In this document: positions 18,611 through 32,117 of the stretch, piece after piece | Layout: each line of letters opens with the position of its first letter | Position numbering within the stretch: position 1 is the first letter of the stretch | Assembly (NCBI GenBank): GCA_021201535.1 | Contig: JAJQEU010000064.1 | Location: 1-50,903 of the forward strand | Direction of reading: 5' to 3' | Source of the DNA: Clostridiales bacterium | Lineage (GTDB): Bacteria > Bacillota > Clostridia > Lachnospirales > Lachnospiraceae | Length of the DNA stretch: 50,903 bases | The notes under the pieces: model-generated | The model's input: the letters and a program-made list of their open reading frames with translations, nothing else | Databases searched by the model: none | Told to the model about the DNA's origin: nothing | Program-made: the position numbers and the translations under genes

Positions 18611-20200
18611 ATGGGAGAATTTCGATTTGAGAATCAGGGGAATCATACTTGGCTGATATATGCTTTCGGCGAAGAGGATGTAATTGATACTGTGTGCCTC
18701 GGTATGTTGACGAACAATCGGATACCGGGACTGGCCGAGTCACTGTACAATCAGATGGATCACATGAAAATGATGAAATATAGGGTGTCGTCAAAGGTAA
18801 CCGTGAGACAGTTTCTGACTGGTATGATGAACAAAAAACGCGTGACAGCTGTGTTTTTGTGGATTGTGAATGCTATACTTTCTGCGGAGGATTACATGAT
18901 CGAACCGGATTCGATTTTGTTGGATCCGGATTATATGTTTGTAGATGTATCAACCTGCGAGACCGCTTTGATTTGTGTGCCGGTGAAGGAAAAACTACAG
19001 CCAGATATGAATCTTAGAATGTTTTTTAAGAATATTGTTGTCGGAATCCAGTATGATCCAATGGAAAACGGAGATTATGTGACCAGAATATTGAATTATC
19101 TGAATTGTCAGACCGGGTTTTCTCTGCCGGATTTTAAAAAACTATTGAATGAAATTGATTGTCCGTCAGACAGTCTGTATTCAGATCCGGAAAAAGAAAA
19201 ACAGAGGCAAAATCGAAAAGAATCTGTCCCGGCGCGTGCGTCGGACGTGAAACAGGTGTGGAAAAAGGAACAGCAGGTTGTGATAGTGGGAGGAAAGATG
19301 GAACAGCAGTTGCAACCACATTCTGAAAAAATGCCTGTTTCATCGACAGCACCTGGAAAGTCGACTGTCGAGGAGAAACCAGAGAAGGCGGAAGAACGGA
19401 TTCAGATTCCTCCCGCTGTGGTATCCGAATATCCTGAAACAGATGGTGAGAAGGGCGCGGCTGACATAATGTCTCTGGCATATCTGCTCCAACATTATAA
19501 TAAAGAAAATGCGGCAATCTATAAAGCACAGAAGCGGGATAAAAAATCATCGGAATATTCTGGTAAAAAAAAGAATAAAAAAGCCACTGAGACTAACAGA
19601 AAACATAAGAAAGCATCGAACGAGTGTAAAATTGCGGATCAGGGTGGTTTTGTCATACCGGGAAAGGATGTACATAAAGAACAGAATCTTTATCATGTAA
19701 GAGATTCAGAGGAGCAGAATCCTCATCGGGAAAGAGGGCAGGGGAACGGCTCGGCGGGAGCGGGTGCACAGCGAGTAAAACAGCCAGACAGACCGGATAC
19801 CGGAATGGGAACAGATTTAAATTATCTGGATCGGACCATTCTGTCAGAGTCGGTTGGATTTGATAAAACGCTGGTTTCCGGGATGGATCAGAATGCTGTT
19901 GCAGTACCGTATCTGCTGCGACTCAGAAATGATGAAAAAATCTTGCTTGACAAACCGGTTTTTCGAATTGGAACCAGGCGGGATTATGCGGATTATTGTA
20001 TCAGGGACAATCCGACGGTCAGCAGAAGTCATGCAACAATTCTGATACGTGACGGAAAATATTATGTGCTGGATACAAATTCAAGCAATCATACTTATGT
20101 AGATGGACGAATGATTTCGAGTAATGTGGAGACGGAGCTTTCTCATGGCATGCGTCTGAAGTTTTCAAATGAGGAATTTGAATTCCGGATGTTCGGATGA
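18611..20200 (+). CDS. DUF6382-FHA-like phosphopeptide reader
   Basis: A 529-aa cytosolic protein. Residues 1-190 resemble the DUF6382 domain (YRVSSKVTVRQFLTGMM). About 190-400 is low-complexity and Lys/Glu-rich, probably a disordered linker. An FHA domain fills about 440-525 (FRIGTRRDYADYCI, SRSHATI, LDTNSSNHTYVDG), with the conserved Gly-x-Arg, Ser-x-x-His and Asn-Gly-like positions. Just before it, DRTIL and DKTLV (Thr near 409 and 420) look like phosphorylation sites that an FHA domain could bind. ATG 18611 is used because AGAGGTGA precedes it. It is followed by the PP2C and kinase genes, so it is the likely reader of their signal. Confidence 0.85.
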   Translation: MGEFRFENQGNHTWLIYAFGEEDVIDTVCLGMLTNNRIPGLAESLYNQMDHMKMMKYRVSSKVTVRQFLTGMMNKKRVTAVFLWIVNAILSAEDYMIEPDSILLDPDYMFVDVSTCETALICVPVKEKLQPDMNLRMFFKNIVVGIQYDPMENGDYVTRILNYLNCQTGFSLPDFKKLLNEIDCPSDSLYSDPEKEKQRQNRKESVPARASDVKQVWKKEQQVVIVGGKMEQQLQPHSEKMPVSSTAPGKSTVEEKPEKAEERIQIPPAVVSEYPETDGEKGAADIMSLAYLLQHYNKENAAIYKAQKRDKKSSEYSGKKKNKKATETNRKHKKASNECKIADQGGFVIPGKDVHKEQNLYHVRDSEEQNPHRERGQGNGSAGAGAQRVKQPDRPDTGMGTDLNYLDRTILSESVGFDKTLVSGMDQNAVAVPYLLRLRNDEKILLDKPVFRIGTRRDYADYCIRDNPTVSRSHATILIRDGKYYVLDTNSSNHTYVDGRMISSNVETELSHGMRLKFSNEEFEFRMFG

Positions 20201-20213
20201 CGAGGGATAAGCA

Positions 20214-20984
20214 ATGGATTTTATGATATCAGCCAACACGGACATAGGAACCAGCCGTTCTTCCAATGAGGATGGAGTTCTGATAAATGTGATCGACACG
20301 GTACACGGCAGGATGGTTTTGGCGGTTCTCTGTGACGGTATGGGAGGCCTGTCCTGCGGAGATGTGGCTAGTACGTTTATGATCCGGGCTTTTGAGAACT
20401 GGTCGCAGGAGGAATTGCCTGATTTGTGTCGTGTGACGCTTACGGATTCTGTTGTCCGTACTTCCTGGGAAAGGCTGATTGAAACCTGCAGCCGGGAAAT
20501 CCAGATGTACGGGAATCGTAATAACATGCGTCTCGGTACGACGATCGTAGCGATTCTGATCACACAGGTGCGCTATTATGTGATGAATGTTGGAGATTCC
20601 AGAGCTTATGAACTGACAGAAGATGGGATAAGGCAGCTTACAGAGGATCAGACGGTTGTAAATAATCAGGTGCGCATGGGAATTCTGAGCAGAGAAGAGG
20701 CGCAACGGGATCCAAACAGGCATGTGTTGAGCCAGTGCGTGGGGGCATCGAAAGAAGTATATCCGGAGATGTTTTTCGGTGTTGCGAGGAAGGATGCGGT
20801 ATATTTGCTCTGTTCAGATGGATTTTATAATCAGATGCTACCGTGCGAGATACAGGAGAGCCTGCGTCCGTCGGAATTATGCAATGATTATATCATGACG
20901 CAGCGTTCGTTGGAGCTGATTGAACAGGACAAGCGGCGTGGGGAACATGACAATATTACAGTGGCTTTGGTTCGAACATACTGA
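20214..20984 (+). CDS. PP2C-type Ser/Thr phosphatase, copy 1
   Basis: A metal-dependent cytosolic phosphatase (256 aa) expected to reverse phosphorylation by the kinase encoded two genes downstream. Motifs are SSNED (D20), CDGMGG (D41-G45), LGTT, NVGDSRAYEL, LTEDQT, LCSDGF and HDNITVALV, so the metal-binding set is complete. No membrane segment is seen, and it is PrpC/Stp-like in size. It shares length and motif placement with the protein at 29573-30340, which points to duplication. Confidence 0.9.
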   Translation: MDFMISANTDIGTSRSSNEDGVLINVIDTVHGRMVLAVLCDGMGGLSCGDVASTFMIRAFENWSQEELPDLCRVTLTDSVVRTSWERLIETCSREIQMYGNRNNMRLGTTIVAILITQVRYYVMNVGDSRAYELTEDGIRQLTEDQTVVNNQVRMGILSREEAQRDPNRHVLSQCVGASKEVYPEMFFGVARKDAVYLLCSDGFYNQMLPCEIQESLRPSELCNDYIMTQRSLELIEQDKRRGEHDNITVALVRTY

Positions 20985-21204: not shown

Positions 21205-24060
21205 ATGTCAATGATTATTGCTTCAACCTATCAGATTATAAAAGAAATCGGTTCTGGCGGAGCCGGCAGAGTATATTTGGCGAGACATCTGCGCCTGGGA
21301 AAAAATGTTGTTTTAAAAGCGGACAAGCGCAGAATTACGACCCGCCCGGAACTGCTGCGACGTGAAGTGGATACATTGAAAGATTTAAAACATCCGTATA
21401 TTCCCCAGGTTTATGATTTTGTGGTTGAGGACGAAACTGTATATACGGTCATGGATTATGTTGAGGGAGAAAGTCTTGACATAGCGTTGAGGCGTGGCGA
21501 GAGTTTTTCACAGCCGCAGGTAATTCTATGGGCACGCCAACTTCTGGATGCGCTATGTTATCTTCATAGCCCGATTCATGGTAATCCCCCGCGAGGGTAT
21601 GTACATAGCGATATTAAACCGGCCAATCTAATGTGTACACCATCCGGCGATATTTGCCTGATTGATTTCAACATCGCGCTTGCTCTCGGAGAAGAACATG
21701 TCGTGGGGCGCAGTCCGGGTTATGCATCTCCGGAGCATTTAGGTCTGGACTATTCCTCTTTTGGTACTGAGAGTATAGACACCTGCAATCAGGATACAGA
21801 AACACTGACAAGTATTGATCAGACATTGAAAGTGGTCCAGGAACCATTTACTTCATCCGGGAAAAAAATCAAGCCTGACGTCCGGTCAGATATCTACAGC
21901 GTTGGCGCGACCCTGTATCATTTGCTGAGCGGGCAGCGTCCGTCTGCAAATGCTATGGAAGTAGTTCGACTTTCAGAGCAGGAATTCAGTCCTCAGATCG
22001 TAGAGATCATCGCGAAAGCAATGTGTCCGAATCCGGAGCTGAGATATCAAAGCGCTGCGGAGATGCTGGACGCACTGACGGGTTTGTATGAAAACGACGA
22101 CCGTACGAAGCGGTTTCGGCGAAATACCGTGCGGGGAGGCGTTCTTCTGGCGGTGATATTTTTCTTCGGGCTGGGGATGACGCTGACCGGACTGAAACGG
22201 ATGCAGACGACGGAGAGCTGGCTGAAGCTGGCGGAGTATGCGCAGACCTCTCTGGCGGAGGGGGACTCCGATGCGGCGCTGTCCTATGCACTGCAGGCAC
22301 TGCCGACGGGAAGGAGTTTTCTTCAGCCGGATTACACGGCGGAGGCACAGATGGCGCTCACGGATGCCCTCGGCGTGTATGATCTGTCGGACGGATTCAG
22401 GATATACAGGACAGCAGAGCTCCCGGACAATCCGTTGTACATGGATATTGCTTCGGATGGAACCACAGCGGCCTGTGTGTATTCCGGATCTGTATGTGTG
22501 ATTGACACCGAGACGGCGGAACAGATTGTCTCTTTGCCGGCTGTATCCTCCGCGCTGGCGGAAGTGCAGTATCTGAATGACCATACCATTCTTTATGCCG
22601 GGAGTGACGGAATCTGCGCTTATGATATTTCAGAAGGAACGGTGCTGTGGACCGGGGAGCCGGCAACGGCGATCTGTGTTTCCGGGGACGGAGGAACGGC
22701 GGCAGCGGTCTGTAAGGACGATTCTTTTGCCGTTGTTTACGATACGGCGACGGGAGAGGAAAAATGCCGTGTTGATTTTGGAGGAAGATCTCAGAGTGTG
22801 ACGGTAAATGACAGCTTTGCAAATCCGAGTGACAACCTCTTTGCGCTGAACGCTGACGGAACTCTGCTGGGTGCGAGTTTTTCCGACGGCTCGCTGTCTG
22901 TATTTGATCTGGAGAATCCGGATGGGCAGACGGATATTTTTGACAATACATCCGGGTTCACACATTTTGAAGGCGGATTTTATGAACAGTATTTTGCTTT
23001 TTCCGGATCGGACGCATCCTCGTCTGTGTTTGCGGTGATTGACATGGATCAGATGGTTCAGACCGGAGGATTTGAGGCGGAGAGCGGCTTTGGCGTACAG
23101 ACGGACGAAAACGGGATATATGTACAGTCGGAAAATATTCTGGTTCGGATTGATCCGGTCACGGGCGATCAGGAACCTCTGGTGACGACCTCCGAGAATC
23201 TGTACCGTTTTGCTGTGAGTGATACGCACACGGCTGTACTGTATCAGGATGGGATTCTGTTTTTTGACTCTGACGCGCAGCTGACGGAGCGTTTTGAAAA
23301 CACGGCGGGTGATTTTATTGAGATCGCAAACGGAATCGCTCTGGTTGGCAGTATGGATTCCGATAAAATCAGGATACTGAAGTATGAAAATCATGCGGAG
23401 GCGGAGGTTTTTACTTATGATTCCGGCTATGATCACGATGAGGCGAGAATCAGCGCGGATGGAGAGACTGTCATGCTGTTTTCCTACAAAGAGTTCCGCC
23501 TGTACCGGATGACGGGAGATCTGATCTGCGAGATCAGTATACCGGATGCCGATCAGGTGTACGATCAGCAGTTTGTCCGTGAGGAGGGAGAATCCTGTCT
23601 GGAAGTGACTTATAATGACGGAACGGTCATTACTTACAGTGCGAGGGACGGCAGCGTTCTTTCGGAGATACAGGGTGAGATACCGGATGCCTCCCTGTAT
23701 GAGGAGTTTTATACGGATTCATTTCGCATTGAGTCTCCGCTTCACGGTACGCCGGTGGTTTACAGTCTCACGTCCGGCAGAGAAATCTGTGAGCTGGAGG
23801 AGGATGCTTATCTCACTTATATCACACAGGTGGGAGACAATATCGTGGCGCAGTATTACACGACAGACGGAGAATATTACGGTCTGCTGTATAACAGTGA
23901 TTGGGAAACGATTGCGTATTTACCGGATCTGTGTGATGTATATGAAGAGGAGCTATACTTCGATTATTCGACAGGTAATTTGAGGAAATCTCAAATTTTT
24001 AATATAGATGAACTGATCACAATGGGTCAAAATGAAACAGAAGGGAGAAAAACCGAATGA
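21205..24060 (+). CDS. Transmembrane Ser/Thr kinase with propeller-like ectodomain
   Basis: A 951-aa Hanks-type kinase. Gly loop IGSGGAGRVYLA (15-26), Lys K38, helix-C Glu E54, catalytic loop HSDIKPAN (H134-N141, Asp D136) and DFN instead of DFG (D154-N156). HRD has Ser for Arg. A 40-residue Thr/Ser-rich insertion (about 183-224) lies in the segment before the substrate-binding lobe. The transmembrane helix is at about 311-329, a short helical TPR-like part at 336-380, then repeated beta strands with DTETAEQI or DTATGEEK patterns, like a WD40/PQQ-type propeller. Key Asp, Lys and Asn remain, so activity is likely though Mg contact via DFN is unusual. It overlaps the next gene by 4 nt. Confidence 0.88.
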   Translation: MSMIIASTYQIIKEIGSGGAGRVYLARHLRLGKNVVLKADKRRITTRPELLRREVDTLKDLKHPYIPQVYDFVVEDETVYTVMDYVEGESLDIALRRGESFSQPQVILWARQLLDALCYLHSPIHGNPPRGYVHSDIKPANLMCTPSGDICLIDFNIALALGEEHVVGRSPGYASPEHLGLDYSSFGTESIDTCNQDTETLTSIDQTLKVVQEPFTSSGKKIKPDVRSDIYSVGATLYHLLSGQRPSANAMEVVRLSEQEFSPQIVEIIAKAMCPNPELRYQSAAEMLDALTGLYENDDRTKRFRRNTVRGGVLLAVIFFFGLGMTLTGLKRMQTTESWLKLAEYAQTSLAEGDSDAALSYALQALPTGRSFLQPDYTAEAQMALTDALGVYDLSDGFRIYRTAELPDNPLYMDIASDGTTAACVYSGSVCVIDTETAEQIVSLPAVSSALAEVQYLNDHTILYAGSDGICAYDISEGTVLWTGEPATAICVSGDGGTAAAVCKDDSFAVVYDTATGEEKCRVDFGGRSQSVTVNDSFANPSDNLFALNADGTLLGASFSDGSLSVFDLENPDGQTDIFDNTSGFTHFEGGFYEQYFAFSGSDASSSVFAVIDMDQMVQTGGFEAESGFGVQTDENGIYVQSENILVRIDPVTGDQEPLVTTSENLYRFAVSDTHTAVLYQDGILFFDSDAQLTERFENTAGDFIEIANGIALVGSMDSDKIRILKYENHAEAEVFTYDSGYDHDEARISADGETVMLFSYKEFRLYRMTGDLICEISIPDADQVYDQQFVREEGESCLEVTYNDGTVITYSARDGSVLSEIQGEIPDASLYEEFYTDSFRIESPLHGTPVVYSLTSGREICELEEDAYLTYITQVGDNIVAQYYTTDGEYYGLLYNSDWETIAYLPDLCDVYEEELYFDYSTGNLRKSQIFNIDELITMGQNETEGRKTE

Positions 24061-27000: not shown

Positions 27001-27842
27001 AACTGGAGGAAGGCATCGATTACACGGTGGCAAGCGGAAGTACAAAAATCACGATTATGAAACAGACATTTGAGAATAAGGCGAACACGAGCGGAAGCAA
27101 CACATTGGCGGCGGAGTTCCGTGTGAACGGAGATACGTCCAATACGCTGAAGCGTACCGCCCAGAACTTCCGAATCAGTCTTGCGTCGAGCAGCAGTTCT
27201 TCCGACAGCACATCTTCCGGAAGCGGGAGCAGCACGAGCAGCTCCGGCAGTACGGGGAGCAGCAGCTCTTCATCCTCATCAGGGAGCAGCTCCTCGTCCT
27301 CGAGTACGACAACGGGGAGCACTTCATCCTCTGACGGAAATACTTCTTCCGCGAGCAGTACGACCGGGAGCAGCAGCTCGACCAGCAGTAAATATGTGAC
27401 GGGTATCATCTGTATCGTAGATGGAGACGGTAATCCGATTTCAGGTCTGTCTTTGGAGATGCACTCATCTGTTCTGACTGCAACGACGAATCAGGAAGGA
27501 TATGCCTCTTTCAGCAATCTTGAATTTGGAAGCCATACGCTTTATATAAAGGATGAAAACGGCAATGTGGCGGCGCAGAAGAGCTTCACCATTCAATCCG
27601 GACAGAGTGTGTCGCTGAGCGGGGATACGGTTACGGTGCCGCGCGGAGGCGTATTTACATTGACAGTTCAGTATGACGGCCATGATCTGACCCTGCTGTC
27701 TGTGCAGACAGGGAATGCTCAGGCAACCGATTCTGTTAAGACCGGGGATACGGCGACCTGGATCTGCTGGATCATTATCATCCTGATTGCGTTTGGCGGG
27801 ATTATGTTTTTCAGACGAAGGATGAGAAAAGCGAGAGCTTAG
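24057..27842 (+). CDS. Large wall- or membrane-anchored surface protein with Ig-like domains
   Basis: A 1261-aa secreted protein translated with the kinase (ATGA overlap). Signal peptide at 1-27 (AVILAVVLVVPTLSYVGNAA). Then an acidic low-complexity stretch (about 35-165), folded beta-rich regions, a He_PIG-like Ig repeat near 875-910 (LPEGVELNTSTGEIYGVA), a Ser-rich linker (about 1041-1111) and a CnaB-like domain (about 1120-1205, GNPISGLSLEM). The C-terminus is SVKTGD, then a hydrophobic helix, then RRRMRKARA: a sorting-signal-like end with VKTGD in place of LPxTG. Probably displayed by the cell and the partner or ligand of the kinase ectodomain, which is inference. Confidence 0.82.
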   Translation: MKKWTKILAVILAVVLVVPTLSYVGNAADSVWGVVEDMGVTESDETGDGQISENALESNAAGTDGMTVSLSAGDTGEADPAQNETEDNEGTGDGDLNAANGAGETEDVSSKANIQAAAALSGSGQMVTEEEEASEGDDETNAETAEDTDGTQEVSGSLSDASDDTMSQMSLLPLSEVNAYLILSDYSEEELTSVPVDAVLEMLRDSEGNQMEIADSATTVWKYVKDDMDGIEVYEKYTIGNNETIDLSTGEDISTYTMELIIGSENQLDADNIRYQVKVYLLSTVTESVEYELYTQDEDGNRTEVEPSQVEVTTNTQLTMTVEVTQWTVVGHEENTEYYLGITSEADEHPYIQTDVYTFAEFYNYLYSTDAVSITDQILNQDMEEVDAGYLGVYDPTTSIYDTKNLFFLVYTDTLTGSLVNYACYAFCVSADETSYIEGHIYTCDGNEMTDVVCYDASEITINNVTVDLTTGAVAAADSVQGLYYMLEDGYSADDEYYCVLNAYGSTYGYDANSYVTKAVVGLYDSLEDAADAEDIKEELIPVDQTSVPRGYKANYNYGSKGVYFTVFFEDGSVWKVNVRTIEYMAEYDEAYVRSYTDAPIVGEADPWFQVTGVQQNGEALDTYIVENGKSINMDTMYGYGYQTVFINDEDADMSELQPDFWTADADRIEVYVNGTKINSGDTIDCSAGTVEFSVIIDGNVKNYMVSFIKKTSKSQLYVCGPNTREVFLDEYFEYKHDILIANVGGETLTGLRVELDATNCKLDSYWTVGGEGNDTLAAFTTTESTAKYGELSNLAKIRLLPDGEGEIEGTLTIYADGMVPIVITLTGRAQNPKIVTEDLTDAVKYVPYSCLVTTNNMYDWTDVTFSITSGELPEGVELNTSTGEIYGVAQETGEFDITVEAAFTSDTYTFESSSVDVTLTVLDNTNDNVYYETDDGYDILVSVGEDEDGTHDYILTEYDDEEFRSSGEMGEFIDLWLNGEKLEEGIDYTVASGSTKITIMKQTFENKANTSGSNTLAAEFRVNGDTSNTLKRTAQNFRISLASSSSSSDSTSSGSGSSTSSSGSTGSSSSSSSSGSSSSSSSTTTGSTSSSDGNTSSASSTTGSSSSTSSKYVTGIICIVDGDGNPISGLSLEMHSSVLTATTNQEGYASFSNLEFGSHTLYIKDENGNVAAQKSFTIQSGQSVSLSGDTVTVPRGGVFTLTVQYDGHDLTLLSVQTGNAQATDSVKTGDTATWICWIIIILIAFGGIMFFRRRMRKARA

Positions 27843-28007
27843 GAACTGTCGAAAAATATCGTGAGTGTCAAAAATATTTGTCGTTCACTATAAATGCTAC
27901 GCACACGATCGCGCAAGACATGACGGGAGTATGAAAAAAGTCTGTAAAAGTTTAAATGTCAGGTCTTCTATGGTAAAATCCCGCCATTGAATTGAAATTT
28001 TGCAGCT

Positions 28008-28122
28008 CAGCCGGAGAATCCTTACGGATACTCCGGCTGAAATCTACCTCAGATTATTTCTTCAGGGTTAGCGAGGCGCACCATGCTGTGCCTCGCTAAC
28101 AGACGTAATCTCGAAGAGATTA
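28008..28122. other. Three consecutive stem-loops in a non-coding gap
   Basis: Stems are CAGCCGGAG/CTCCGGCTG (28008-28039), GTTAGCGAGGC/GCCTCGCTAAC extended to an about 14-bp stem (28067-28100), and TAATCTC/GAGATTA (28106-28122). No T-run follows the first two. The 496-nt gap (27843-28338) has no credible gene before the toxin. It may hold an RNA or worn repeats. Confidence 0.5.
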
Positions 28123-28241
28123 GTCACACCGGCGACGGCTGTTTACATATCGTGCGTGTCGGCTTCTTTATTCACGGTGAGTAAATGAAAAACAGAATAT
28201 ATCCGCATGCTTTTATATAACGTAAAAATCCTGAAAAGAAA

Positions 28242-28270
28242 TTGCGCAGGAATAAAAACCGTGTTATCAT
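28242..28270 (+). promoter_or_regulatory. Promoter of the toxin gene
   Basis: TTGCGC (28242-28247) and TATCAT (28265-28270) are 17 nt apart, giving a start near 28277. In the leader, CCTCCC (28301-28306) is complementary to GGGAGG (28325-28330), the ribosome site, so the site can be masked by a hairpin. Confidence 0.6.
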
Positions 28271-28338
28271 GTCCTATAGCATCCGTGACAGGGTGGACAG
28301 CCTCCCGGCCTGAATACATAGGAAGGGAGGTGGTGCGG

Positions 28339-28458
28339 ATGACGGCTTATGAGACCGTAATGGTCATCCTCGGGATACTGGGCCTTTTGGCAGCCTTTGG
28401 AAGCCTGTTGGTAGCACTGCTGAACTTTCTCGACAAGAGAAGGAAGAAGCGAAAATAA
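28339..28458 (+). CDS. Holin-like small toxin of a type I system
   Basis: A 39-aa peptide, MTAYETVMVILGILGLLAAF at the start, then a second half rich in Leu and ending in KRRKKRK. It fits the putative holin-like toxin group: a short start with YE, one membrane helix, basic tail. The ATG at 28339 lies 8 nt after GGGAGG. An upstream in-frame start exists but would put 44 extra polar residues before the helix. An antisense RNA is encoded on the other strand, overlapping the 3' side. It would act by damaging the membrane when made in excess. Annotating pipelines may miss it. Confidence 0.7.
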   Translation: MTAYETVMVILGILGLLAAFGSLLVALLNFLDKRRKKRK

Positions 28459-28553
28459 AAATGCCTATCCTGTCTGATCCACAGGATAGGCGGCGTCCGT
28501 AAGGACAAAACGCTAATTCCGGGAGCATCCACTTTGGAGCGGGTGCTTTCCTT
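28455..28553 (-). ncRNA. Probable antisense RNA antitoxin
   Basis: The minus-strand promoter at 28560-28588 would start an RNA near 28553. It ends at an 11-bp perfect stem, GCCTATCCTGT/ACAGGATAGGC (28463-28491), followed on this strand by ATTTTTATTTT. The roughly 100-nt RNA is complementary to the 3' untranslated part of the toxin message. A plus-strand hairpin AGCATCC/GGGTGCT (28524-28547) with TTTCCTT could end the toxin message inside the overlap. Confidence 0.65.
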
Positions 28554-28559
28554 ACACAT

Positions 28560-28588
28560 ACTATAACACTGATTGACCGGGATTTCAA
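28560..28588 (-). promoter_or_regulatory. Promoter of the antisense RNA
   Basis: On the minus strand TTGAAA (28588-28583) and TATAGT (28565-28560) are 17 nt apart. Confidence 0.7.
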
Positions 28589-28619
28589 CATAAATTTCCC
28601 GGCCCATCCGAAATCAGAT

Positions 28620-28727
28620 TCAGTCTTCTAATGCTTTTTCGATGCGCGCATTGTTCGCTTCAAGATATTCCAGTGCTTTTTCAACATTGCCTTCTTTCAG
28701 AGTCTCGATTTGAATGGTTACTGAATA
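28620..28727 (-). pseudogene. In-frame continuation beyond a stop codon
   Basis: After the TAA at 28730-28728 the same frame stays open for 35 codons to TGA at 28622-28620, in a helical, Lys/Glu-rich stretch (IETLKEGNVEKALEYLEANN). It has no start codon or ribosome site of its own. With the upstream ORF it would make a 92-codon gene broken by one stop. Confidence 0.45.
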
Positions 28728-28898
28728 TTATTGTTTATCGTCGTTGCAAAGGGTTTCGTATTTTTCCGTGATTTCCCGGAAATCATCCATGGTTTTGCAT
28801 TCTTTCAGATCAAGCAGAATGCGGGTGCGCTCCAGCTTGCGAGCCAGGGCTTCGATTGTTTCCGCGCTGGATGGCATCAGATCATCCCTCTCTTCCAT
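28728..28898 (-). CDS. Small acidic helical protein, possibly truncated
   Basis: A 56-aa ORF (MEERDDLMPSSAETIEALAR at its start) with a strong ribosome site (GGGAGGCGGTGA) and a good promoter at 28932-28960. The sequence is charged and helical, without membrane segments or known motifs. The reading frame continues past its TAA (28620-28727), so the gene may be a nonsense-broken version of a 92-codon one. I do not recognise the family. Confidence 0.55.
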   Translation of the reverse strand: MEERDDLMPSSAETIEALARKLERTRILLDLKECKTMDDFREITEKYETLCNDDKQ

Positions 28899-28931
28899 AA
28901 TGTCACCGCCTCCCTGATTTCAGATAAAATC

Positions 28932-28960
28932 ATTATAGCGGTTTGGACGGGAGGTGTAAA
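28932..28960 (-). promoter_or_regulatory. Promoter of the small minus-strand ORF
   Basis: On the minus strand TTTACA (28960-28955) and TATAAT (28937-28932) are separated by 17 nt, 34 nt ahead of the start codon. Confidence 0.7.
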
Positions 28961-29180
28961 GCCTGTTCAGTTATCAAAGTGCGAAATGACACGGTGAATT
29001 TATCGTTGACATCGCAAAGTACTGATGATGCGTCAGAGTGCAGGCTGCCGGTGCAGGGCTGTTCTGAATATCGCCAATATGAAAGAAAGATATGATATTG
29101 TGCAAGTATAACATATAATGGCCGGAAAACAATAAAGAATTTGTGAAAGATTTATAAAGAAAATTTTATGAGTTATATAC

Positions 29181-29209
29181 TCGACAATGAAAAGTAATTG
29201 TGTTATAGT
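29181..29209 (+). promoter_or_regulatory. Promoter of the second phosphatase-kinase module
   Basis: TCGACA (29181-29186) and TATAGT (29204-29209) are 17 nt apart, giving a start near 29217. The nearest gene, PP2C copy 2, begins 356 nt further on. Confidence 0.6.
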
Positions 29210-29216
29210 GTTCTCG

Positions 29217-29376
29217 TTTCAAACACATCGCTACTTTCTGAACTTCACGATGTGTTCCGCATCCTGTATCTGATACGGGATGTCTGAAATTCGGCTTTTC
29301 GCCATTTATTTTACTTTAAACTATGTAACTGCTTGTACAGGATGGGAGTGTTTTTCTGTTCTTATCAGAAAACTCC
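29217..29376 (+). other. Structured long leader
   Basis: Several hairpins lie in the leader: ACACATCG/CGATGTGT (about 29222-29255), CATCCTGTAT/ATACGGGATG, and GGGAG plus TTTTCTG against CAGAAAACTCCC with a 3-nt bulge. No coding sequence or known riboswitch motif is seen between 28961 and 29572. Confidence 0.45.
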
Positions 29377-29513
29377 CATGCGCTGCTGTCGCAGCGCGCC
29401 AACATCTATGAAAGTCGATTGCTCCGCACTTCGAGTCTACGCTTCGCTCCGGTCGGCGCTAAACAGACGTCCCCCGGACGTCTAGCGCCCCGCGATGGCC
29501 GCCGGTATTCGGG
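29377..29513 (+). repeat. MITE-family copy, right side missing
   Basis: It shares about 115 nt with the reverse complement of 41417-41547, including ATCTATGAAAGTCGAT and GGTCGGCGCTAAACAGACGT. It stops after GCCGGTATTCG, whereas the copies at 41148 and 49931 go on. It lies in the leader of the second module. Confidence 0.85.
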
Positions 29514-29572
29514 TATAAAGAGATTTCGGGCGGATATATAACGATATACAACGGCAGGGAGGGCATGGATCA

Positions 29573-30340
29573 ATGGATTTTAAGATTGCGGCACATACGG
29601 ATGCCGGTATAAGGAAAAGGATCAATCAGGACTCGGTTCTGGTAAAGGTAGCAGGGACAGACCGGGGCAGCGTATGCCTGGCTTCGATTTGCGACGGTAT
29701 GGGCGGACTTGAGAGAGGCGAACTGGCCAGCGCGACTGCAGTCCGGCAGATATCGGACTGGTTTGAACATGAGTTCCCGGATCTGCTGTATCGGGGACTC
29801 AGTATGGAGATCCTGGCAGAACGGTGGACGGAAATGATCTACAGCATCAACAGGCGCATCAGTACATACGGCCATATGGCGCATATGGATCTCGGGACGA
29901 CGATGGTCATCCTGCTGCTGGCGGAGCGTACATATTATATAGCGAGTGTAGGCGATTCCCGGGTTTATCTGCTGAGGGAGGACCTGAAGCAGCTGACGAA
30001 GGATCAGACTTTTATTCAGAGGGAGATAGATGAGGGACGCATGACCCGGGAGGAGGCCCGCAGAGATCCCAGACGGAATGTTCTGCTGCAGTGTGTGGGC
30101 GCTTCTGATGAGATCGTGCCGGATTTTTCTTTCGGAACCATCGTGCCGGGCAGTATGTTTCTTGTCTGCAGTGATGGGTTCCGTCATGCGATTTCAAAAA
30201 AGGAGATGTATGCTTACCTCTGCCCGCGGCATCTGTTTCAGGAGAAGATGATGCAGGAGGGAATCGAGAAGCTGACAGAGCTGGATAAATACCGCAGGGA
30301 ATCAGACAATATTTCATCCGTTCTGATTCGGTGCGATTAG
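29573..30340 (+). CDS. PP2C-type Ser/Thr phosphatase, copy 2
   Basis: A 255-aa metal-dependent phosphatase with the same plan as copy 1: INQD (D20), CDGMGG (D41-G45), LGTT, SVGDSRVYLL, LTKDQT, VCSDGF and SDNISSVLI. The key acidic residues are in place. The two proteins differ clearly in sequence despite matching motif positions, so the duplication is old or the genes came separately. It starts the second module; the kinase begins 58 nt downstream. Confidence 0.9.
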   Translation: MDFKIAAHTDAGIRKRINQDSVLVKVAGTDRGSVCLASICDGMGGLERGELASATAVRQISDWFEHEFPDLLYRGLSMEILAERWTEMIYSINRRISTYGHMAHMDLGTTMVILLLAERTYYIASVGDSRVYLLREDLKQLTKDQTFIQREIDEGRMTREEARRDPRRNVLLQCVGASDEIVPDFSFGTIVPGSMFLVCSDGFRHAISKKEMYAYLCPRHLFQEKMMQEGIEKLTELDKYRRESDNISSVLIRCD

Positions 30341-30398
30341 ATTTTTACAAACGAATGCCGGTAAAATTTTTATTTTGATTGGTGGGGGTCAGGAGACT

Positions 30399-32117
30399 AT
30401 GCTGGAGATAGGTTCCCTGGTGGACGGCAAATACAGGGTATTAAATAAATGCGGGGAGGGCGGCATGAGCGTGGTCTATATGGCGATCAACGAGCGTGCC
30501 AACAAGACCTGGGCAATCAAGGAGGTCCGGAAGGACGGCGTGAAGGACTTTGATCTGGTAAAGCAGGGGTTGATTGTTGAGACAAACCTGTTGAAGAGAC
30601 TGAGTCATCCGAATCTTCCCAGTATCGTGGATGTGATCGACAGTGACGACAGTTTTCTGATTGTCATGGATTTTATTGAGGGAAGGACGCTGAAAGATAT
30701 GCTGGCTGAGTTCGGTCCGCAGCATCAGGAGGATGTGATCGACTGGGCAAAGCAGCTGTGCGGTGTGATGGGCTATCTTCATTCCCGAAAACCGCCGATT
30801 ATTTATCGGGATATGAAGCCGTCGAATGTCATGCTGAAGCCGGATGGGACGATCGTGCTCTTTGATTTCGGAGCTGCCCGGGAATACAAGCTTTCGAGTC
30901 CGGGAGATACGACCTGTCTGGGAACCAGAGGATATGCCGCGCCGGAACAGTACGGCGGACATGGGCAGACGGATGCCAGAACGGATATTTTCTGCCTGGG
31001 AGCCACGATGTATCATCTTGTCACCGGACATAATCCGGGCAGTCCCCCCTATCAGATGTATCCGATTCGTCAGTGGAACCAGAATCTGTCTGCCGGACTG
31101 GAATCTATCATAACAAAGTGTACGCAGCAGAATCCGGACGACCGGTACGCGAGCTGCGCCGGGCTTTTATACGACCTGGAGCATTTCGGAGAAGCAGATA
31201 TCGCATATCGGAAAAAACAGATCAGAAAGCTTCGCAAATTCATCGTTTCGGCTGCGGCGGCCGCAGTTTTCTGTGCGGCATCTCTTTCATTTTATTATCT
31301 GGAGAACTCTGAGAAAAAGAGCACGTATGATTATTATATCAGCAGTGCGGAGAAAGCGTCCGGCGATGAGCGGATCGCGTATTATCGAAACGCCATCAGT
31401 CTGGAGCCTGAGAATGAGGAGGCGTGGAATGCACTGCTGAAAGAATTCTCGGAGGATGATACCTTTACTTCGGATGAGAGCAGTATGCTGCAGAGTATTC
31501 TGATCGCGACGAACGGCGGCCAGACGAACGAGACTTCTTTTAAAAATAAAAACCGGGAAGGGTATGATAAATTTTGTTTTGAAGTCGGAATTTTATATTA
31601 TTACAAGCTGGAGACCGGAAATGGCAGGATGCAGGCAAAGCATTACTTCGGCGTAGCAATGGCATCGGAATATCTGAGCGAGGATCAGATCGTACGGGCG
31701 GAATGTCTGTTCCGGATTTCTGAATACTATTCAATCATCGGCAGGGTGGACAATACCGGCGATTCTTCGGTATCCTACAGGGATTACTGGGATGATCTGG
31801 TGGAGCTGACCGCGGGTAATCTGGTGGAGATGGATAATCCCAACACAGCCATTATTATGTATCGTGAAATGACATCTCAGATCATATCCCGCGCCGATGA
31901 TTTCAAAAACAGCGGCGTTACGCAGAGTGAGATGCAAGAGCAGCTGGAGAATATCCGGGAGCATCTGGAGACTGATTTTAACTCTCTGACAGAGAGTCAG
32001 GAGAGCGGGATACAGGACAGCCTGAAGGCATTGAATGAGTCTCTTTCTCAGGCGGAGCAGGTAATCAACAGTAAATTTGGCAGAAGATCGGAGGAACAGC
32101 AGGAGGAGGAAGTTTGA
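30399..32117 (+). CDS. Transmembrane Ser/Thr kinase
   Basis: A 572-aa Hanks-type kinase with a complete active site: Gly loop CGEGGMSVVYMA (18-29), Lys K41, helix-C Glu E61, catalytic YRDMKPSN (Y136-N143, Asp D138), DFG (156-158) and APEQ (181-184). The basic IRKLRK precedes a membrane helix at about 281-300, then an extracellular helical part (310-560) with TPR-like pairs, including AYYRNAISLEPENEEAW. It lacks PASTA repeats, so it is not a PrkC copy. ATG 30399 is taken for its AGGAG. It overlaps the next ORF by 4 nt. Confidence 0.9.
   Translation: MLEIGSLVDGKYRVLNKCGEGGMSVVYMAINERANKTWAIKEVRKDGVKDFDLVKQGLIVETNLLKRLSHPNLPSIVDVIDSDDSFLIVMDFIEGRTLKDMLAEFGPQHQEDVIDWAKQLCGVMGYLHSRKPPIIYRDMKPSNVMLKPDGTIVLFDFGAAREYKLSSPGDTTCLGTRGYAAPEQYGGHGQTDARTDIFCLGATMYHLVTGHNPGSPPYQMYPIRQWNQNLSAGLESIITKCTQQNPDDRYASCAGLLYDLEHFGEADIAYRKKQIRKLRKFIVSAAAAAVFCAASLSFYYLENSEKKSTYDYYISSAEKASGDERIAYYRNAISLEPENEEAWNALLKEFSEDDTFTSDESSMLQSILIATNGGQTNETSFKNKNREGYDKFCFEVGILYYYKLETGNGRMQAKHYFGVAMASEYLSEDQIVRAECLFRISEYYSIIGRVDNTGDSSVSYRDYWDDLVELTAGNLVEMDNPNTAIIMYREMTSQIISRADDFKNSGVTQSEMQEQLENIREHLETDFNSLTESQESGIQDSLKALNESLSQAEQVINSKFGRRSEEQQEEEV

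Follow-up and report, generated by a model that had tools for sequence, protein, structure and literature searches.

The FHA gene and its neighborhood

The window, that is, the whole stretch of DNA analyzed here with its 50,903 nucleotides, carries an FHA-domain gene as well as phosphatase and kinase genes that bear on its interpretation:

18611..20200, + strand: DUF6382-linker-FHA protein, 529 aa (open reading frame; Pfam DUF6382 and FHA above cut-off)
20214..20984, + strand: PP2C/PPM-type Ser/Thr phosphatase, the presumed eraser (Pfam PP2C_2 and PP2C; same position in relatives)
21205..24060, + strand: Ser/Thr kinase (STKa) with a PQQ-type beta-propeller, the presumed writer (Pfam Pkinase, E 6e-35; PQQ_2)
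29573..30340, + strand: second PP2C (Pfam)
30375..32117, + strand: second Ser/Thr kinase, STKb type (Pfam Pkinase, E 5e-45)

A ribosome-binding-like sequence, AGAGGTG, lies just 5' of the ATG at 18611, and 13 bases separate the FHA gene from the PP2C gene at 20214-20984. An adjacent phosphatase and kinase had been part of the original prediction, and the PP2C (20214-20984) and the kinase (21205-24060) are indeed found directly 3' of the FHA gene; this FHA-PP2C-kinase order is conserved in Lachnospiraceae, Oscillospiraceae and Bacillaceae. The region 5' of the FHA gene encodes a Tad-pilus set (TadZ, TadA/T2SSE, two T2SSF proteins, TadE and a prepilin peptidase) and a WG-repeat protein. No gene for an EssC-type ATPase was found in the window, and the assembly (94% complete) holds one FtsK_SpoIIIE-domain locus with an 863-aa frame. 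A promoter and terminator scan returned little above chance.

The second PP2C/STKb pair (29573-32117) has no nearby FHA gene, and its sequence resembles the pair located 3' of trypsin-like-FHA genes in relatives (L102). A trypsin-FHA remnant 5' of this orphan pair was sought in all six frames of 27700-29700, and none was seen.

Architecture of the window protein

The following parts can be distinguished in the DUF6382-linker-FHA protein:

18629..19087, + strand: DUF6382 domain, aa 7-159 (Pfam, E 1.1e-19)
19088..19903, + strand: long linker, aa 160-431, disordered mostly from about aa 200 (AlphaFold2)
19475..19558, + strand: linker helix, aa 289-316 (AlphaFold2 pLDDT ~94; conserved in alignment A1)
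19829..19843, + strand: Thr motif copy 1, D-R-T409-I-L, aa 407-411, with R408 in the conserved Thr column (alignments)
19862..19876, + strand: Thr motif copy 2, D-K-T420-L-V, aa 418-422, with K419 in the conserved Thr column (alignments)
19913..20191, + strand: FHA domain, aa 435-527 (Pfam aa 452-518, E 1e-13; AlphaFold2; alignment)

The predicted succession of an N-terminal DUF6382 domain, a long disordered linker and a C-terminal FHA domain was confirmed by Pfam (E 1e-19 and 1e-13) and AlphaFold2. In the AlphaFold model of the window protein, calculated with a 71-sequence alignment, the DUF6382 and FHA domains are confident and the Thr-motif region is disordered; pLDDT values are mostly below 55 between about aa 200 and 426, the helix at 289-316 excepted. 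Orthologues from Tad loci keep this helix as SLFYLLQHYNKxNAAxYKxQK, and it looks like a docking helix.

The DUF6382 domain gave a weak profile match to the N-terminus of EssB (hhalign prob 49, E 1.7e-4, 88 columns), and profile comparison with kinases yielded a prob of 3.5; an EssB-like fold or EssB-like pseudokinase is thus possible, yet the match is suggestive only. In structure searches with the models of the window protein and of a relative carrying three canonical motifs (L093), the hit lists were filled by matches to the FHA domain. The only open-access paper found that names the domain leaves its function open.

Four FHA residues for phospho-Thr recognition (S471, R472, H474 and N493) are kept in the window protein. 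Position 455, which follows the IG dipeptide, is basic (Lys or Arg) in 64 of the 71 aligned sequences; in this protein it is a Thr, with the basic R456 adjacent to it. The nearest solved FHA fold is that of DgcB with its own phospho-tail (6hc1; Z 18.6 for the L093 model and 18.1 for the window model), tied with EmbR and followed by GarA and OdhI at Z ~17.

A conserved threonine motif ahead of the FHA domain

DUF6382-FHA proteins were gathered by genome and contig searches, and the last 70 linker residues of the 166 non-redundant relatives analyzed were covered by an unsupervised motif search. One motif dominates these linkers, G/E-E-T-[TV]-[VL]-L, in which the Thr at position 0 is preceded by Gly/Glu at -2 and an acidic residue at -1, and followed by Val/Thr at +1, Leu/Val at +2 and Leu at +3 (117/164). 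Its information content amounts to 8.7 bits per site, compared with 2.7-3.2 bits in shuffled linkers and 3.4 bits for a Ser-centered motif. The distance to the FHA domain has a median of 23 residues and is about 21-33 residues in most members. When sites were picked by their flanks alone (score of at least 6), position 0 was Thr in 110 of 119 cases and Ser in none. Thr-x-x-[LIM] sites comprise 261 of the 723 Thr residues near the FHA domain (36%) versus 56 of 1030 elsewhere in the linker (5%), and Ser-x-x-[LIM] sites showed no enrichment near versus far from it. We regard this family-wide motif as the real find of our analysis.

FHA domains distinguish between phosphorylated Thr and phosphorylated Ser, and are often selective for the residue at +3. 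The Thr-specificity of the motif and its Leu at +3 are consequently what one would expect of a ligand for an FHA domain. Selectivity at +3 is also described for DgcB, whose self-peptide preferences are hydrophobic residues at -3, +2 and +3 and Glu at -2 (PMC6733907). Among 154 proteins whose phospho-Thr-binding FHA residues are intact, 122 have the motif, versus 6 of the 16 in which these residues are not intact (p = 0.0008, a value that ignores kinship). Collectively, these features agree with a motif that serves as the phospho-Thr ligand of an FHA domain, probably the protein's own.

Two further properties of the family bear on the question of which FHA domain reads the motif. Tandem copies are found in 41 of the 166 relatives, with a spacing of 10-13 residues and up to seven copies, and the same pair of motif and FHA domain occurs behind trypsin-like domains. 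If the phosphorylated linker were bound by the FHA domain of another molecule or another protein, oligomers or a scaffold would result. Arrays of up to seven motifs per FHA domain are unlike a one-to-one latch in cis and allow binding in trans beside it; in the window protein, moreover, the 12 residues between copy 2 and the first FHA strand leave little length for reaching the groove of the same molecule, and T7SS relatives possess ATPases with phospho-Thr-competent FHA domains (PMC11217815). Against this stand the fixed position of the motif some 21-33 residues before the FHA domain in most members and its joint movement with the FHA domain between unrelated N-terminal domains, both of which favor a partnership with the protein's own FHA domain. 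We consequently consider a purely trans-acting ligand possible but unlikely.

No docking of the unphosphorylated linker on the FHA domain appeared in the AlphaFold models of the window protein or of L093, in both of which the linker motifs have pLDDT values below 50; for a contact that depends on phosphorylation, this result speaks neither for nor against.

The trypsin-like proteases (L053, L056, L059, L122, L228 and L230) carry tandem ETTxL/ETSVL motifs and a C-terminal FHA domain, and PP2C and kinase genes adjoin them where the locus is visible. They constitute a putative FHA-linked membrane protease system. A further variant is seen in L085, L087, L090, L091 and L098, whose FHA-linker arrays consist of acidic-T-G-L-L units, with up to seven scored copies, in which Gly replaces the second Thr of TT.

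The motif copies of the window protein are off register

The presence of DRTIL and DKTLV ahead of the FHA domain, the starting point of the original prediction, is real: the FHA profile begins 32 residues after T409 and 21 after T420, and the first beta-strand predicted by AlphaFold2, at aa 432, follows them at 23 and 12 residues. The two copies are not chance occurrences, as they align with the corresponding columns of a motif that the family conserves strongly. The expected conservation across homologues holds for the Thr motif, which is strongly kept among relatives across the Firmicutes, but the Thr residues originally singled out are one position off: in alignments A1 and A2 (71 sequences), R408 and K419 occupy the conserved Thr columns, with T409 and T420 at +1. 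The first copy has Thr in this column in 10 of the 11 sequences of alignment A1. The two adjacent Thr residues of many relatives are absent from the window protein, which has R-T and K-T instead, and the residue at +3 from its own Thr is Ser in both copies. A relative of the same genus, L227, is canonical (NFGATTVLN..AETSVLSG, with IGKE in its FHA domain).

R408/K419 and T455 make the window protein an outlier of its family and not its best example. As read from the alignments, it is a divergent member for which the place of the motif had been predicted rightly and the conserved residue wrongly, and it is either register-shifted or decaying. Decay would mean that this copy has lost phospho-Thr switching, that its motifs and its FHA pocket are under relaxed constraint, and that DRTIL and DKTLV are remnants. 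This would account for R408 and K419 at the conserved Thr, for Ser at +3 and for T455 in place of Lys/Arg, all of this beside a canonical protein from the same genus. It would not readily explain why both copies are altered alike and both retain Thr at +1, with the Thr of copy 2 standing where L227 has Ser, nor why S471, R472, H474 and N493 are kept with the basic R456 next to T455. Similar off-register copies are also found in the relatives L069 (DKTMLS) and L033 (LDRTIV). We therefore rate decay as quite unlikely, and the parallel change of both copies leads us to infer a register shift in preference to random decay. OdhI offers a precedent for the use of adjacent residues: its Thr14 and Thr15 can be phosphorylated individually or both at once (PMC2784874).

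Threonine motifs in the kinases

Two stretches within the kinases of the window resemble, or may correspond to, the linker motif:

21739..21876, + strand: 46-residue insert after the activation segment (SPEH), with the sites FGTESI, DTETL and DQTLKV (sequence of the kinase at 21205)
30903..30926, + strand: STKb activation-loop GDTTCLGT, a look-alike of the linker motif GETTVLG (11.5 bits with the linker matrix)

The kinase adjacent to the FHA gene in most orthologous loci is of the STKb type, like the window kinase at 30375, and has the activation loop xDT[TV]xLGTxGYAAPEQ. The DT[TV]xLGT stretch of these activation loops is similar to the linker motif: of 37 Thr-containing loops from FHA-adjacent kinases, 25 reach 5 bits or more with the linker matrix, a score attained by none of 19 PASTA kinases. 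Specificity of the look-alike loop for FHA-adjacent kinases was weakened by the finding that STKb-clade kinases without an FHA gene within ~1.5 kb share it. The loop motif is a property of the clade and occurs as well at loci whose FHA linker is without the motif.

The close match between the linker motif and the STKb activation loop would also fit a linker that is only a kinase substrate or pseudosubstrate, one that engages the kinase by mimicking this loop and does not serve as a ligand of the FHA domain. We deem this improbable, as Thr-specificity combined with Leu at +3 is an FHA recognition signature, and as the motif is associated with intact FHA residues.

At the Tad locus of the window, the beta-propeller kinase at 21205 takes the place of the usual STKb partner of the FHA protein. 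The kinase (21205-24060) is likely a membrane-anchored sensor, the anchor being suggested by a hydrophobic stretch after the kinase domain. STKa relatives were found in 15 of 299 genomes of the bacterial family. The activation loop of the 21205 kinase itself is devoid of Thr, and the STKa kinases L306-L319 likewise have no activation-loop Thr and a variable Thr-rich insert directly behind SPEH. These inserts can form arrays, such as NTTVLL, NETLFL, TETLYL and KETAFL in L106 and KTEVL, STEVL and DTEIL in L097. The insert of the L313 kinase is a long array of DxTEREQT-like units.

Individual loci show a striking correspondence between kinase and FHA protein (KTVLM and RTVIM in L316; PTEML and PTEFM in L318). 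Across ten STKa loci, covariation of kinase insert and FHA motif reached p 0.046 for positions T+1 to +3 and p 0.32 for a wider stretch, and is only suggestive.

A model of a proposed linker switch

We propose a regulatory switch on the basis of features that can be read directly from the sequences, namely the motif, its conservation, Thr-specificity and position, the gene order and the look-alike in the kinases; phosphorylation, FHA binding, closure in cis, competition by the kinase and the output are the inferred steps. A kinase of the cluster would phosphorylate the linker motif that precedes the FHA domain, and the adjacent PP2C would take the phosphate off again. An FHA domain, most probably the protein's own, would bind the phospho-Thr and thereby be blocked to other partners, as in GarA/OdhI. 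DUF6382 would serve as the output or anchoring part within the Tad-pilus locus, and the window protein would carry its phosphosite at T409/T420, one position C-terminal of the family Thr.

The same FHA domain probably docks also on its cognate kinase, via the STKb activation loop or some of the STKa post-loop inserts, and this docking would compete with self-binding. We judge the chances of this scheme as a whole to be about even. GarA is recruited by PknB via the PknB activation loop (Villarino 2005, as cited in PMC6213207 and PMC2784874), which makes it plausible that one FHA domain reads a kinase loop and its own linker. A more far-reaching and tentative proposal, which we consider rather unlikely, is that the linker motifs copy the kinases' phospho-Thr motif (loop DT[TV]xLGT or TxxL-type insert arrays), so that one FHA domain would read kinase and self state competitively and the tandem copy number would set a threshold.

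Comparison with known FHA systems

The disordered tail of GarA/OdhI carries two adjacent Thr residues, ETTSVF. Like the motif described here (21 and 32 residues in the window protein, family median 23), this Thr tail lies 20-30 residues before a C-terminal single FHA domain; Ser/Thr kinases phosphorylate it, a phosphatase reverses this, and OdhI, once phosphorylated, folds back onto the FHA domain of the same molecule (PMC2784874). The proposed likeness to GarA/OdhI stands with respect to distance, Thr-specificity, operon order and FHA fold, and falls short in that the window Thr is displaced and the phosphate-contact Lys/Arg lost. The proteins also differ in that GarA and OdhI have ~150 aa and regulate 2-oxoglutarate metabolism, whereas the window protein has DUF6382, a long linker, tandem motifs and a place in a Tad-pilus operon. 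Its score of 26.2 bits against the OdhI family NF041660 is below the cut-off of 200, and its locus gives no genomic hint of an inhibition of 2-oxoglutarate dehydrogenase or glutamate enzymes, the role of GarA/OdhI.

DgcB of Bdellovibrio is similar in that an N-terminal Thr tail is bound by its own FHA domain with a hydrophobic +3 specificity (PMC6733907); it differs by its GGDEF output C-terminal to the FHA domain, a stimulatory tail, a single motif and the lack of DUF6382. The pairing of DUF6382 and FHA recurs in TseJ/TsfJ (T7SSe/T7SSf), with a phosphatase and often a kinase in the cluster, as described in PMC11217815, the passages of which covered here make no mention of the Thr motif; the window protein is unlike TseJ/TsfJ in its Tad-pilus cluster, in which no EssC-type ATPase was seen. 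Control of a secretion machine by a kinase, a PP2C and an FHA protein is likewise known for PpkA-PppA-Fha/TagH of T6SS, but the window protein scores 26.4 bits against the TagH family, below its cut-off of 120.25. In the Agrobacterium T6SS, the FHA ligand is the phospho-Thr of TssL, a partner in trans (PMC3953482; PMC11217815). In the part of the open-access literature covered, no paper was found that joins FHA domain, Tad pilus, kinase and Lachnospiraceae.

Of 200 sampled genomes of the window organism's bacterial family, 192 encode DUF6382 proteins. A Thr motif at a fixed place predicts for these proteins the phosphorylated residue, the FHA ligand and the competing kinase loop. If true, switches of the GarA/OdhI type, known from the metabolism of actinobacteria, would operate at pilus and secretion loci in gut Firmicutes as well. 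If the linker motifs are in addition copies of the kinase motif, Tad pili, T7SS and membrane proteases of Firmicutes would share a widespread switch that has so far gone undescribed, and in the lineage of the window a change of kinase type would have accompanied the shift in phosphosite register. In the genome of the window, which has one FtsK_SpoIIIE locus only, two contigs (C45 and C104) hold L001 and L005, probably a single further DUF6382-FHA protein split across two contig ends, which carries the motif IGETGHTEFF.
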